This document shows, piece after piece, positions 2,941 through 60,785 of a DNA stretch of 64,000 nucleotides. Each line of letters begins with the position of its first letter. The first letter of the stretch is position 1. Origin of the DNA: Pseudanabaena galeata CCNP1313 (GTDB taxonomy: Bacteria > Cyanobacteriota > Cyanobacteriia > Pseudanabaenales > Pseudanabaenaceae); assembly GCF_029910235.1 (NCBI RefSeq), contig NZ_CP112874.1, positions 4,082,501 to 4,146,500 on the forward strand. The letters run 5' to 3'. The notes below the pieces were generated by a model that saw nothing but the letters and a program-made list of their open reading frames with translations, ran no database searches and was not told the origin of the DNA. Both the position numbers and the translations under genes were made by a program.

Positions 2941-3052
2941 ACGTGAGTTCGATATAGCCATTTGCGGCGTGCGAAGCACGCCGCAAATGGCGAAAAATGG
3001 TAAGAATCGCTTAGCGATTCTTACCATTTTTCGCTTTCGTCGAACTGACGTT
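2941..3052. repeat. IS982-derived miniature element, full-length copy (family B)
   Basis: Inverted ends ACGTGAGTTCGA (2941-2952) and TCGAACTGACGT (3040-3051) enclose two hairpins: GCGGCGTGCGAAGCACGCCGC flanked by ATTTG/CAAAT, and AAAAATGGTAAGAATCGCTT with its complement. The ends match those of the IS982 element at the start of the window. There is no coding capacity. Confidence 0.8.
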
Positions 3053-7095: not shown

Positions 7096-7208
7096 AACGT
7101 GAGTTCGATATTGCCATTTGCATCGTGCGAAGCACGACGCAAATGGCGAAAAATGGTAAGAATCGTTTAGCGATTCTTACCATTTTTCGCTTTTGTCGAA
7201 CTGGCGTT
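7096..7208. repeat. IS982-derived miniature element, full-length copy (family B)
   Basis: Ends AACGTGAGTTCGA (7096-7108) and TCGAACTGGCGTT (7196-7208) flank the same two internal hairpins as at 2941, with a handful of substitutions. It is 113 bp and has no coding capacity. Confidence 0.8.
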
Positions 7209-7474: not shown

Positions 7475-7588
7475 AAACCCAAAAGATGAGTGGCGGCGCG
7501 AAGCGCCGCCACTCATCTTTTGAGTTTTGATTTGTCCTAGCTATCTCTTGCACTGCTATACGTAAATGGCTATATCGAACTCATGTTA
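7475..7588. repeat. Family E palindrome plus family B end remnant
   Basis: AAACCCAAAAGATGAGTGGC and its near-exact complement enclose GGCGCGAAGCGCC. The hairpin is followed by TTGATTTGTCCTAGCTATCT, the typical right flank of this family. At 7570-7588 ATATCGAACTCATGTTAA is an isolated family B end. Confidence 0.65.
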
Positions 7589-17370: not shown

Positions 17371-17580
17371 TACTAAGTAGGTAGACATAATTAAATATAA
17401 AACCCAAATAAGCGAAATCACCCGCAAAGCGGGCGATTTCGCTTATTTGGGTTCTTGGTTTTATTAAATCTAGGTACTTATAGCTGTCGCCATTTTTGTT
17501 AGAACATAAAATCCAAATAGTGTAAGGCGGCGTTTCGCGCCGCCTTACACTATTTGGGTTTTGATTTGTCCTGATACAGG
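17371..17580. repeat. Family F and family E palindromes in tandem
   Basis: 17401-17453 pairs AACCCAAATAAGCGAAATC with its complement around CCCGCAAAGCGGG, flanked by TAAGTAGGTAGACATAA and a decayed partner. 17513-17557 pairs CCAAATAGTGTAAGGCGG with its exact complement around CGTTTCG, within flanks TAGCTGTCGCC ... TGATACAGGTAGAGCTA like those at 25825. No gene is visible in 16938-17614. Confidence 0.65.
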
Positions 17581-17589
17581 TAGAGCTAT

Positions 17590-17760
17590 ACGTGAACTAC
17601 CAGACGCTGACCGCTTAGGCGGTACAGCGCTGGCTTCCTGATTCAACGGGGATAGCGTCCAACAAAACCGAAGTTTTACCAGATCGACTTACATCTCCTC
17701 CACAGGCAGACTCGCTAGTTCCTAACGAGATAACTCGTACTGAGCCGAGTCGAAGTATCC
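17590..17760 (-). ncRNA. Candidate TnpB guide RNA (omega/reRNA)
   Basis: By analogy with IS200/IS605 elements, the scaffold would be the RNA from the last ~130 bases of tnpB through the right-end hairpin at 17605-17629. The guide would be read from flanking DNA below about 17590. Position is inferred; the exact end was not determined. Confidence 0.4.
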
Positions 17761-20843: not shown

Positions 20844-21398
20844 ATGGATTCTGGTTGGAGACGCTCAAATTTTTTATTAGCTTGTAGCCTAGTTCTCTGC
20901 TTCAGTACTAAGGTTTATGCAGAGGAGTTACCCAAAAACTTTGATTCACTACAGCCTATTAATCATCAAATTCAGCAAGTTAAGTCACAAAAAACTAAGC
21001 AAAAACCCAATACTCAATTACTAAATGCTCAATTACTAATTGCTTCTCAAAATGGCAACCTCAAGGAGGTGCGATCGCTAATTTCCCAAGCAACCGATGT
21101 CAATGTCCGCGATGAATATGGATGGACACCGATCCTATGGGCGGCGATGAATGGACATACTGATGTGGTGCGAGTTTTATTAGTGTCAGGTGCAACTCCG
21201 AATACGCGCAATAAGTATGGATGGACTCCTCTAATGTGGGCGGCTGGTCAAGGCTATAGCGAAATTGTGCGATCGCTAATTGCCTCAGGAGCGCGGCTAA
21301 ACGCACAGGATCGCAATGGCTGGACAGCGATGATGTGGGCATGGGATGGCAATCATCAAGAAACGGTCGCAATTTTACGAAATGTGGCTAATGACTAA
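20844..21398 (+). CDS. Exported ankyrin-repeat protein
   Basis: 184 residues. A signal peptide is predicted at 1-26 (FLLACSLVLCFSTKVYA-EE). A low-complexity Gln/Lys linker leads to three or four ankyrin repeats from about residue 65: LLIASQNGNLKEVRSLISQA, DEYGWTPILWAAMNGHTDVVRVLLVSGA, NKYGWTPLMWAAGQGYSEIVRSLIASGA, DRNGWTAMMWAWDGNHQETVAIL. It is presumably a periplasmic protein-protein interaction module; the partner is unknown. It follows a complete family F repeat by about 40 bases. Confidence 0.88.
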   Translation: MDSGWRRSNFLLACSLVLCFSTKVYAEELPKNFDSLQPINHQIQQVKSQKTKQKPNTQLLNAQLLIASQNGNLKEVRSLISQATDVNVRDEYGWTPILWAAMNGHTDVVRVLLVSGATPNTRNKYGWTPLMWAAGQGYSEIVRSLIASGARLNAQDRNGWTAMMWAWDGNHQETVAILRNVAND

Positions 21399-21404
21399 TC
21401 AAAA

Positions 21405-21545
21405 TCAAAATATAAGTAGCGGCGCGAAGCGCCGCTACTTGTATTTTTGGTTTTATGTCCTAACCTAACCTTTGCTTGCTATAGAACAAAAATTGAAAGA
21501 GGGTTTGGAAACCAAACCCGTACCTTAATAGGTAGGGGCACCCCC
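21405..21545. repeat. Family E hairpin and family H fragment after the ankyrin gene
   Basis: 21405-21448 pairs AAATATAAGTAGCGGCGC with its near complement. 21500-21545 has GGGTTTGGAAACCAAACCCG and GGTAGGGGCACCCCCCCC. The minus-strand MscS gene ends within this second repeat. Confidence 0.6.
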
Positions 21546-23041: not shown

Positions 23042-24028
23042 TCAAGAGGGAATTTTAACAAAATTAGGATCGAAAGAACGCTGAGACTTGAGAACACCAA
23101 AGACCTGTCGTAACAGCTTGTGCATTACAGCACCAATGACGGACATTTTGGACTTACCCTTAGCAGTAAGGCGATCGCAGAAAGCGACAATCGGCGAATT
23201 ATAACGACGAGCAACAATCGCAGGCATAAACAAAGCTTTACGCAAACGTGAATTACCAATTTTTGACAAGCGCGGTTTGCCATGAATCGAAGAGCCAGAA
23301 GAGAATTCACGCGGAGTTAAACCCGCAAAAGCGGCTAATTGATCAGCCGTATCAAAAGCAGAAATATCCCGAATTTCCGCCAGTAATACAGTTGCAGTCA
23401 ATTCAGCAATACCTGGAATGGAAGTCAACAAATCCCGTTGCGATTTCAAATGAGGATGTTGATCAAAGTGCTGACGGATCAATTTTTTGGTCATCTCAAT
23501 TTGCTCCTTGAGGAAGTCAATGTGGGTGTTAATTGCTTCAACCAAAATTGGATCAGCCGTAGCAAGACGATTTTGCTCTTGTTGCTGCATGGCGGTTAAG
23601 CTATCTAAACGATGTACTAATGCTTGGAGTTGCTCAATTTCTAATGCTGGTGGTGTCCAAGCAGCAGGCTTTAAGGCAGCACAAAATCTAGCAATAACTT
23701 TGGCATCAGCACGGTCTGTCTTTGTACGACTTAACTCGCTCTTGCCAAAGGCTTTGGGACGTGATGGATTGACGATACTTACTTTGTACCCTGCGGCTAC
23801 TAAGAATCGGGCTAAGGCATTGCCATAAGTGCTGGTGGCTTCCATACAGCTATGTAAATTTTTTACACTTTGAATGTTTAGCCATTCTTGTAGTTCGACA
23901 AATCCTTCGGGATTATTGTTAAATACTTTGTTCTTAATCTTGGCGTTGTCTTGAATTAGGGCAACATCAAACTTGGCTTTACTGATGTCTATGCCTAAAA
24001 CATCACATACTTCATTGCTATTGTTCAT
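23042..24028 (-). CDS. IS110-family transposase (DEDD recombinase)
   Basis: 328 residues, full length. The N-terminal RuvC-like DEDD domain has DVLGIDISKAKFDVAL (Asp), CMEATSTYG (Glu) and the paired aspartates in RTKTDRADAKVIARF. The C-terminal Transposase_20 domain has LTSIPGIAELTATVLLAEI and the catalytic serine region FAGLTPREFSSGSSIHGKPRLSKIGN. No disruption is seen, so the element may be active. The enzyme acts with a structured bridge RNA from the non-coding end to choose target and donor. Confidence 0.95.
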   Translation of the reverse strand: MNNSNEVCDVLGIDISKAKFDVALIQDNAKIKNKVFNNNPEGFVELQEWLNIQSVKNLHSCMEATSTYGNALARFLVAAGYKVSIVNPSRPKAFGKSELSRTKTDRADAKVIARFCAALKPAAWTPPALEIEQLQALVHRLDSLTAMQQQEQNRLATADPILVEAINTHIDFLKEQIEMTKKLIRQHFDQHPHLKSQRDLLTSIPGIAELTATVLLAEIRDISAFDTADQLAAFAGLTPREFSSGSSIHGKPRLSKIGNSRLRKALFMPAIVARRYNSPIVAFCDRLTAKGKSKMSVIGAVMHKLLRQVFGVLKSQRSFDPNFVKIPS

Positions 24029-24280: not shown

Positions 24281-24501
24281 AAGGGGTTTGGTCTCCAAAC
24301 CCAAGTCTTCTTGTTTTTTGGTCTTATAGCAATGTAAGTCTTAAAACCCAAAATATGAGTGGCGGCGCTTCGCGCCGCCACTCATATTTTGGGTTTTGAT
24401 TTGTCCTAGCTATCTCTTACATTGCTATAGCGCTCCTAAATGATTTGTAAGATTTTGAGTGTTGTGAGAGTGCGCCCCGAAGGGGCGCACTCTCACAACA
24501 C
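24281..24501. repeat. Family H half and two complete palindromic elements
   Basis: 24281-24306 is the right half of the split family H palindrome. 24327-24428 has exact ends TAGCAATGTAAG and CTTACATTGCTA around a 25-bp-arm E hairpin (AAACCCAAAATATGAGTGGC; loop CGCTTCGCG). 24459-24501 pairs GTGTTGTGAGAGTGCGCCCC with its complement around GAA, inside ATAGCGCTCCTAAAT...ATTTAGGATTGCTAT. About 200 bases without visible features follow to the next gene start at 24716. Confidence 0.7.
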
Positions 24502-24715
24502 ATTTAGGATTGCTATATAGATATTGAGAAGAAACTTTTTGTAAATTACCATCGTCCTTGAGTGCATTAACGTAATATGTTGCAGACAACTTAAAACATC
24601 AGACCAAATTTAGATTAAGTATTTAGATTAAGTCCGAGTTGAATTTGTCAGAATATCTAAAGATACGATCTAAACTTTGCTAACTACTTATAGCCTGATA
24701 TTTTCGGGGAAATTT

Positions 24716-25606
24716 ATGAACCGCTCTTTGAAATTTTTATCCGTATCTCTGTTAACAGCACTGATCACCGCCGCTACAGTGATGCCTAGCTTTGCCGCAG
24801 ATCCATTCCGCTCCCAAAATGCTCGGGCGATCGGTCGCGAAACCCAGAAAGCCTTTGAATTAATGTTCAAAGATGGAAATTATACGGCTGCATTAAAGCA
24901 GTTGGATTTAGCTGTGAGAACTGAAGCAAACGAGCCACTGTTATTCGCTTTACGCGCTTCTACCTTCTATGCCAGCGAAGACTACTTAGGAATGCGCGTG
25001 GCTGGACAGCGCGTTCGCACTAATGCCAAGGCCTTGATGGGTAAAGATAACCTCAGAGCTTATATCTACCTTGCTGCAAGTGATTTGATTGAGGCAGGAT
25101 ATATTGTCAAAACTGAAGGCTTATCCAGTGCGCCTAAGGCTTTGCCACTAGTGCAAAGCGTTTTTGACAACATCCAAAAAGCCAAGGATATTTCCCCCAA
25201 TGACCCTGAGCTAAATTTGATCAAAGGCTATATTGACATGCTAATTGCATCAGTATTACCTATGTCCGACCTTGAAACAGCTTTGGAAAGCCTAAAGCAA
25301 TTTGCAGCGCCTGATTACCTGAAATGGCGTGGCATAGCTCTAGCCTATCGTGATGCTCGCAAGCCCGATCTTGCTCTAGACGCAGTAAACAAAGCTCTTG
25401 TCTCTGCTCCCAATAATCCAGAGCTACATTACCTAAAAGGACAAGTGTTATGGATGCAAAGCGACAGCAATATTCCGATCGCCAAGAATCAATTTGAGCT
25501 TGCTCTAAGTAAGTCTAAGCAACTGAATCCAAGCCTGCTCGAAGAGATTCGTGGACAATGCCGCAACATCTCTGGCGGTGTAGCTTGTCCTGAACAGACC
25601 AAATAA
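24716..25606 (+). CDS. Exported tetratricopeptide-type protein (cyanobacterial, Sll0314-like)
   Basis: Starting at MNRSLKFLSVSLLTALITAATVMPSFA-AD, a clean signal peptide with AxA cleavage, the 296-residue protein is helical with TPR-like repeats. These are ETQKAFELMFKDGNYTAALKQLDLAVRTEANEPLLFALRA near 40-75 and LDAVNKALVSAPNNPELHYLKGQVLWMQ near 225-255. Helix-loop segments lie between them. Similar exported TPR proteins are widespread in cyanobacteria, with no known function. An upstream in-frame start at 24677 would spoil the signal peptide and lacks support. GGGGAAATTT precedes the chosen ATG. Confidence 0.82.
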   Translation: MNRSLKFLSVSLLTALITAATVMPSFAADPFRSQNARAIGRETQKAFELMFKDGNYTAALKQLDLAVRTEANEPLLFALRASTFYASEDYLGMRVAGQRVRTNAKALMGKDNLRAYIYLAASDLIEAGYIVKTEGLSSAPKALPLVQSVFDNIQKAKDISPNDPELNLIKGYIDMLIASVLPMSDLETALESLKQFAAPDYLKWRGIALAYRDARKPDLALDAVNKALVSAPNNPELHYLKGQVLWMQSDSNIPIAKNQFELALSKSKQLNPSLLEEIRGQCRNISGGVACPEQTK

Positions 25607-25644
25607 ACTAAAAAAAGCGTTGCGAAGCAACGCTTTTTTTAGTT
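25606..25644. terminator. Strong hairpin terminator after the TPR gene
   Basis: AACTAAAAAAAGCGTTGC pairs with GCAACGCTTTTTTTAGTT around GAA, and the run of seven T follows the stem. A near-identical stem is at 26859. Confidence 0.85.
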
Positions 25645-25693
25645 ACAGCTTATCGAGGCTTTATAGCAAAGCAAAAGTTAGTTCGTACAAACC

Positions 25694-25937
25694 AAAACCC
25701 AAGAAACGAGTGGCGGCGCAAAGCGCCGCCACTCGTTTCTTGGGTTTTAAGTCAGCGCTTCGCGCTGAAGTGGTTAAGAAATGGCGATCGCTATAAACAC
25801 TACAAGTCAGAAAACCAAGCAAGGTATAGCTGTCGCCATTCTTGTTAGGGCATAAAACCCAAATAGTGTGAGGCGGCGCGAAGCGCCGCCTCACACTATT
25901 TGGGTTTTGATTTGTCCTGATACAGGTGGCTATAGCT
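25694..25937. repeat. Two family E palindromes
   Basis: 25694-25748 pairs AAAACCCAAGAAACGAGTGG with its exact complement around the CGGCGCAAAGCGCCG core. 25854-25908 pairs AAAACCCAAATAGTGTGAGG with its complement around CGGCGCGAAGCGCCG, within outer flanks TATAGCTGTCGCC and GGTGGCTATAGCTA. Compare the almost identical arm AATAGTGTAAGGCGGCG at 17513. No gene is visible here. Confidence 0.7.
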
Positions 25938-26012
25938 ATATTATAAAAAGTAAGGTCAATTCATGAATTGACCCTACTTTTTTATCCAAAGCAAAAAGAA
26001 AGCAAAAAACTC

Positions 26013-44928: not shown

Positions 44929-44981
44929 AAACCCTAAACGAGAAAGGCGGCGCGAAGCTCCGCCTTTCTCGTTTAGGGTTT
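44929..44981. repeat. Family E palindrome between der and znuA
   Basis: AAACCCTAAACGAGAAAGGC pairs with its exact complement around GGCGCGAAGCT, with one mismatch in the core (GCTCC rather than GCGCC). It can end the znuA transcript. Confidence 0.65.
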
Positions 44982-59631: not shown

Positions 59632-59744
59632 AACGTGAGTTCGATATAGCCATTTGCGGCGTGCTTCGCACGCCGCAAATGGCGAAAAATGGTAAGAATC
59701 GCTTAGCGATTCTTACCATTTTTCGCTTTCGTCGAACTGACGTT
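59632..59744. repeat. IS982-derived miniature element, full-length copy (family B)
   Basis: AACGTGAGTTCGA (59632-59644) and TCGAACTGACGTT (59732-59744) enclose the same two hairpins as at 2941. This is the cleanest copy; its hairpin loops GCTTCGC and CTTAG are fully symmetrical. Confidence 0.8.
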
Positions 59745-60086: not shown

Positions 60087-60118
60087 GCGAGTGGCGGTGC
60101 TTCGCACCGCCACTCGTC
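60087..60118. repeat. Family E palindrome before the response-regulator gene
   Basis: GCGAGTGGCGGTGC pairs with GCACCGCCACTCGT around TTC, flanked by ATGAGGACAAATCAAAACC and a decayed right end. The family flank AGGACAAATCAAAACC appears here on the left. Confidence 0.65.
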
Positions 60119-60730: not shown

Positions 60731-60785
60731 AAACCCAAAAAGATGAGAGGCGGCGCGAAGCGCCGCCTCTCATCTTTTTGGGTTT
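60731..60785. repeat. Family E palindrome
   Basis: AAACCCAAAAAGATGAGAGG pairs with its exact complement around CGGCGCGAAGCGCCG. Its left flank AAGAGATAGCTATGACAAATC mirrors the right flank of other copies, showing that the flanks are also inverted repeats. Confidence 0.7.

Follow-up and report, generated by a model that had tools for sequence, protein, structure and literature searches.

The palindromic element analysed here, from the cyanobacterium Pseudanabaena galeata CCNP1313, is best explained as a miniature transposon (MITE) whose hairpin is rewritten by inter-strand template switching during replication, a reading that we hold at a probability of about 85%. The arms of the hairpins have changed together in place, loops have been inverted and flanks overwritten, and sister subfamilies of the element carry a duplicated TA at their target. 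The window, which is the whole 64,000-nt stretch analysed, is part of a 4.93-Mb contig; statistics on the element's own genome refer to 2.06 of 5.84 Mb (35%), that is, 2.0 Mb plus the window.

The element, its copies and its mobility

The copy under study, a member of subfamily q1, has 14-bp perfect ends (TATAGCAATGTAAG / CTTACATTGCTATA), outermost TATAGC...GCTATA, and is bordered by TA at 24325-24326 and 24428-24429 (Table 1). As a preliminary description had stated, its centre is self-complementary; the stem measures 26 bp, with 100% complementarity, around a TTC loop. Folded as DNA, the copy reaches -43.6 kcal/mol (z -14.7). The four arm types quoted there (AAAATATGAGTGGC at 24343, AAATAGTGTGAGGC at 25854, AGAAACGAGTGGC at 25694 and AAAAGATGAGAGGC at 60731) are likewise present, each complementary to its own partner. 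The core GGCGC-N3-GCGCC is indeed repeated, with 11 occurrences in the window and none in 100 shuffles, and 567 matches in the genome compared to 1 for the reversed pattern. The original figure of more than twenty copies holds genome-wide, where 194 palindromic copies were found in the 2.06 Mb, but not in the window, which has 9 to 11 (nine copies related in sequence to the element, eleven cores) and just three matches to the exact flank GGGTTTTGATTTGTCCTAGCT at three or fewer mismatches. The 194 copies were assigned to four flank-defined subfamilies (q1-q4), in which characteristic arms go with characteristic flanks. Family matches are present in 26/26 genomes of the genus, and an exact flank pattern was matched in records of Pseudanabaena and Phormidium tenue. 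A search of the available literature for Pseudanabaena MITE palindromes retrieved no earlier report.

Table 1. Copies of the element, neighbouring hairpins and informative sites. Positions refer to the window unless stated otherwise.
Feature	Position	Strand	Details
Copy under study, q1 miniature transposon	24325..24429	+	~105 bp, from sequence
Its central hairpin	24343..24397	+	arms 24343-24368 and 24372-24397, loop TTC 24369-24371
q2 copy	25825..25940	+	stem 25854-25879/25883-25908, loop GAA; filled/empty alignment
q4-like copy	25662..25795	-	stem 25694-25719/25723-25748, loop AAA; alignment with relative
Small hairpin CAGCGC-TTC-GCGCTG	25757-25771		inside the q4-like copy 25662..25795
Single-copy hairpin	25606..25644	.	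AACTAAAAAAAGCGTTGC-GAA-GCAACGCTTTTTTTAGTT
q1 copy	7475..7527	+	left flank gone, loop GAA, right end GCTATA at 7555-7560
q1 copy, reverse orientation	60731..60785	-	arms AAACCCAAAAAGATGAGAGGCGGCGC
q2 copy	17479..17590	+	stem 17508-17532/17538-17562
q1-like copy, diverged	21398..21456	-	arms AAAATACAAGTAGCGGCGC
Diverged family hairpin	44929..44981	+	arms 25 bp, one mismatch
Family hairpin, q2-like flanks	60088..60116	-	arms CGAGTGGCGGTGC
GCGAAAAATGGTAAGAATCGCT-core repeat copies	2990-3034, 7146-7190, 59682-59726		
Filled/empty site, q3	own genome 468165		
Filled/empty site, insertion in G018	opposite own genome 1446914		
Filled/empty site, q2	25825-25940		

Other repeats lie close by. An IS110-family transposase (Pfam DEDD_Tnp_IS110; 23042-24028, minus strand) adjoins the copy under study and has seven genome copies of 99.9-100% identity. 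Since two of the IS110 copies (L162 and L166) sit within identical flanking sequence, AGCCCCTACCTATCC...GGTTTGGTCTCCAAA, a preferred insertion at a repeat is suggested. At 24426-24516, a different palindromic element (the GTTGTGAGAGTGCGCCCC family, ends TATAGCGCTCC...GGATTGCTATA) abuts the copy under study, with TATA common to both; the site of its sister at 1602154 of the own genome is cleanly empty in G018. A repeat with the core GCGAAAAATGGTAAGAATCGCT (spacer 1-5 nt) and the flanks ACGCCGCAAATG / TTTCGTCGAACTGACGTT occurs three times in the window, and 12 or more window hairpins (e.g. at 1761, 3129, 6631 and 52618) belong to further families, of the types AAAGTGTTGC, CACAAAATGGC, CCTGTGGCGCACGC and CTGTCCCGCCCGC, with differing flanks, perfect pairing and variable arms.

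With a length of 105-115 bp, no coding capacity and many dispersed copies, the elements have the makeup of IS630/Tc1-type MITEs. Where both alleles could be compared, one TA at the empty site corresponds to a TA on either side of TAGC...GCTA at the filled one; the q2 copy at 25825-25940, for example, is missing from the matching site in the relative G009, where a single TA is found. Within q1 itself the evidence for such a duplication consists of the TA flanks, and for the copy under study it is suggested by the empty sites of the related subfamilies. The MITE ends have TATAGC in common with a DDE_3 (IS630/Tc1-type) element present in seven copies in the genome (ends TATAGCGGTTTTC...), a match of just ~6 bp. 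Judging from end sequence and target duplication, it is presumably a transposase of the IS630/Tc1 type, with matching ends, that mobilizes the MITEs. A second DDE_3 element, with 11 near-identical 1132-bp copies in G000 (C1, C3 and C4; L343-L353) and the ends TATACTTTA..TAAAGTATA, looks recently active.

The preliminary description had suggested a search for an associated transposase of the REP/RAYT type, in which case the elements would be REPs or REPINs moved by RAYT, a Y1 transposase. The genome has six Y1_Tnp loci, two of them with a q1 hairpin within ~200 bp, but these two hairpins lie on opposite sides of the gene and 4/6 loci are without one. Moreover, REPINs depend on RAYT and are without TA duplication (PMC3116915), contrary to the TA duplications and terminal inverted repeats of the sister elements. 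Because of these duplications and the inconsistent placement at the Y1 loci, REP/RAYT was rejected, and we regard it as extremely improbable.

Paired arm changes within and between species

The preliminary description had proposed that the two arms of a copy change together, and had named as checks a comparison of compensatory with unpaired changes and a comparison of the same locus between strains. Both bear the proposal out. Among 36 well-preserved q1 copies, unpaired changes occurred at 0.0043 per arm site, compared to 0.107 changes per site in the flanks. Paired double changes reached 0.037 per pair, and of the variants restricted to a single copy 10 were paired and 4 unpaired.

As q1 copies share ancestry, the same loci were also compared between species. 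This set comprised 83 hairpins, each with one relative per locus, which were picked solely for being palindromic in the home genome. Arm and flank identities of at least 80% each were required, and pairing in the target was not; the filter was applied because unfiltered counts took in non-orthologous hairpins of the same gap. The relatives' genomes are partly drafts, several of them short-read. In these 83 hairpins, both partners of 59 pairs had been replaced so that a new complementary pair resulted, compared to 0-6 such cases when the partner was shifted by 1-6 positions. The rate of double changes in the inner stem was 0.039 per pair (bootstrap 0.028-0.050) and the expectation under independent change, calculated with the flank rate of 0.083, was 0.0023, which amounts to a ~17-fold excess. 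About 6% of the inner stem pairs differed on one side only between species, suggesting that correction is incomplete or that some loci are decaying; within the window, the q1 copy at 7475 has one unpaired change, located in the outer stem.

The site of the copy under study is unreadable in G018, where its flanks are rearranged. The evidence for change in place therefore comes from sister copies and from neighbouring hairpins, two of these within 1.4 kb of that copy. In the hairpin at 25694, within the q4-like copy, one stem pair is changed on both sides in G009 (A:T to G:C), where the loop is TTC, equivalent to an inversion plus one change.

These changes bear on the possibility that a few fixed arm variants, inserted independently, were each spread without later co-change. 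Insertion is real, q1-q4 match typical arms to typical flanks, and arm types were thus spread partly by insertion as flank-defined subfamilies. To this extent, the objection raised in the preliminary description against its own proposal stands. It leaves unexplained, however, the 59 paired changes and the inverted loops at the same loci of two species, as well as the private variants within q1, which are mostly paired. In-place co-change hence rules out fixed variants as the only cause, although the idea is partly right as regards subfamily structure; as a full account we consider it very unlikely.

Paired changes would also be expected if a folded RNA, such as a terminator or structured transcript, were under selection, with arms mutating independently and compensatory mutations being fixed. 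Gaps between convergent genes are rich in hairpins (4.9 per kb, compared to ~2.0 in divergent gaps), and many hairpins begin less than 50 bp from a stop codon. However, among 11,317 pairs of co-directional intergenic hairpins, with strands assigned from gene calls of a crude ORF set, G.T mismatches on the transcript strand (63) were not above A.C mismatches (58), and double changes were without transition excess, with a transition:transversion ratio of 32:27 compared to 211:189 in the flanks. The balanced ratio and the lack of a G.T excess argue against a route through G-U pairs, so that selection on RNA pairing is not needed, and it predicts neither exact loop inversion nor overwritten flanks. 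Selection for the folded form, the second explanation in the preliminary description, was accordingly left unsupported as far as RNA pairing is concerned, and we judge it unlikely. A T run was found downstream of 185/520 co-directional hairpins, and on the other strand of 177; Rfam gave 0 matches above gathering score in the window. Given the enrichment between convergent genes, some hairpins, found at positions expected of terminators, may also serve as such, and selection may thereby add to the pattern on top of the mutational process.

Separately, standing stem mismatches in co-directional gaps were G.T or A.C in 121/144 cases, whereas about half of the flank substitutions between species were transversions. 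This bias toward transition-type mismatches perhaps reflects young mutations or wobble mismatches that escape correction.

Loop inversion and flank overwriting

Three-base loops could be compared at 47 orthologous loci. Nine were identical and 17 differed at all three bases, being exact reverse complements; another four had three changes and were not reverse complements. When loops were shuffled among loci (5000 shuffles), the mean number of reverse-complement matches was 4.2 and the maximum 12. Scored by nearest match, 22 loops were flipped, 23 kept and 2 tied. Loop orientation is thus close to random between species and near saturation, and a rough lower bound from the binomial interval puts the flip rate at ~0.6 per hairpin on a path with 0.08 changes per flank site. 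In the window, G009 has the opposite loop orientation at three neighbouring hairpins (25606, 25694 and 25757), one of which also has a paired arm change. The first, a single-copy hairpin, has the loop TTC in G009 with an unchanged stem and differences at 1/60 flank bases; the small one at 25757-25771 has AAA there.

An assembler blind to the difference between a loop and its reverse complement at a perfect hairpin might produce such inversions, in principle where arms exceed its word size, and several relatives are short-read drafts. Against this, arms shorter than 20 bp, below usual word sizes, had 17 flips in 31 loops and thereby contributed 17 of the 22 flips in total, which disfavours an artefact. 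Assembly errors would moreover give rise to neither paired arm changes nor overwritten flanks, and we give this explanation hardly any weight.

Such overwriting was seen in three q1 copies (859236, 936428 and 1134899), in which a reverse-complemented copy of the left flank stands in place of the right one, with arms of 34-35 bp compared to the normal 26 bp. In the copy at 1134899, a private change of the left flank (TAGTACAT) recurs as its complement on the right; as this private mutation is present on both sides, the overwritten flank derives from the same copy. At 1514108, the arms measure 26 bp in the own genome; in G018 they reach 44 bp and the loop is inverted. Copying from one side to the other gives this case and the q1 flank pattern directly.

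This origin also matters for gene conversion, by which stem and loop would be replaced together from other copies, including those in opposite orientation. Potential donors number hundreds, and chimeric copies with a q1 flank on one side and a q2 flank on the other do occur (reg 1328298 and 927632). However, hairpins without a second copy in the 2.06 Mb co-change and flip as well (37 double changes among 1124 pairs and 9 exact flips), so that exchange between copies is not required, and the overwritten flanks stem from the same copy. Gene conversion from other copies hence appears quite improbable. Arm-to-arm templated correction, as put forward in the preliminary description, is favoured by the co-change and loop inversion in place and by the overwriting of flanks.

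Proposed template switching in a hairpin-dense genus

Arms made more complementary by copying and spacers inverted between perfect arms, both marks of template switching, were found, the former in the 59 paired co-changes and the overwritten flanks and the latter in the 17/47 exact reverse complements. We infer that the biochemical step is a switch of templates during replication. After insertion of the element, the arms would then not evolve by independent point mutation. Instead, the growing strand would jump at the hairpin to the complementary strand, copy arm and loop from it and return. After a single such event, the second arm would pair with the first at every position, and a mutation in one arm would therefore be either erased or copied across. 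The same event would reverse-complement the loop, and a switch that sometimes passes beyond the stem would leave one flank as the reverse complement of the other.

Counted beyond the element's own family, hairpins with a net stem score of at least 14 have a density of 527 per Mb genome-wide and of 734 per Mb in the window. A 500-kb shuffle had none, and a single 50-kb stretch of E. coli had one, equivalent to 20 per Mb. Loss of the palindrome nuclease SbcCD was considered as a cause of this richness and is unsupported, since the genus has SbcD above the cut-off and full-length SbcC-like matches. Possibly, although this is doubtful, strand switching at hairpins is unusually frequent in Pseudanabaena and all of its hairpins, mobile or not, are continuously rewritten, with loops flipping back and forth. 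If so, arms would evolve as a unit, loops would flip perhaps within one culture, and the clock of hairpin evolution would be mutational, not selective.

Cyanobacterial MITEs of the IS630/Tc1 type, such as Nezha, are short and noncoding, with terminal inverted repeats and TA duplication. The elements described here match them by description in all of these features and differ in their interior, a perfect 26-bp hairpin with arms that evolve jointly and are subfamily-specific in sequence. Nostoc small dispersed repeats are short, structured and intergenic, with compensatory variation between copies. We know of no report of in-place loop inversion for these or for REPINs. Both REPINs (PMC3116915) and Nostoc repeats resemble the present elements as short structured intergenic repeats with compensatory variation between copies.

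In yeast, inter-strand template switching homogenizes the arms of inverted repeats and inverts the spacer, with short spacers being favoured; that study covered 39 genes and found ten spacer inversions in coding sequence (PMC8604942). In E. coli, quasipalindrome mutations were studied with reporter assays (PMC7202029). As in these systems, one event would homogenize arms and invert the spacer; unlike there, the Pseudanabaena cases are intergenic hairpins and MITEs, at ~500 per Mb, with the loops oriented almost at random when sister species are compared. Template switching has also been proposed to create and maintain RNA hairpins (PMC8794818), where, as here, paired changes come from single events without G-U intermediates. 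That work concerns RNA genes under structural selection, whereas no sign of selection at the RNA level was found for the Pseudanabaena hairpins. The mechanism itself is therefore already known, being described or proposed in PMC8604942 and PMC8794818. As far as we found, the setting and the extent are new, namely a hairpin-dense bacterial genus with MITE subfamilies that diversify by paired arm change and with a near-random orientation of loops in sister species.

These findings matter beyond the element. Template switching, known mainly from reporters and scattered cases, becomes measurable genome-wide: it leaves its own mark in the loop flip, which should be near neutral and lends itself to counting wherever two related genomes are available. 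Paired stem changes normally serve as proof that an RNA fold is functional. As such changes are abundant here without signs of RNA selection, covariation alone can mislead in genomes like that of Pseudanabaena.
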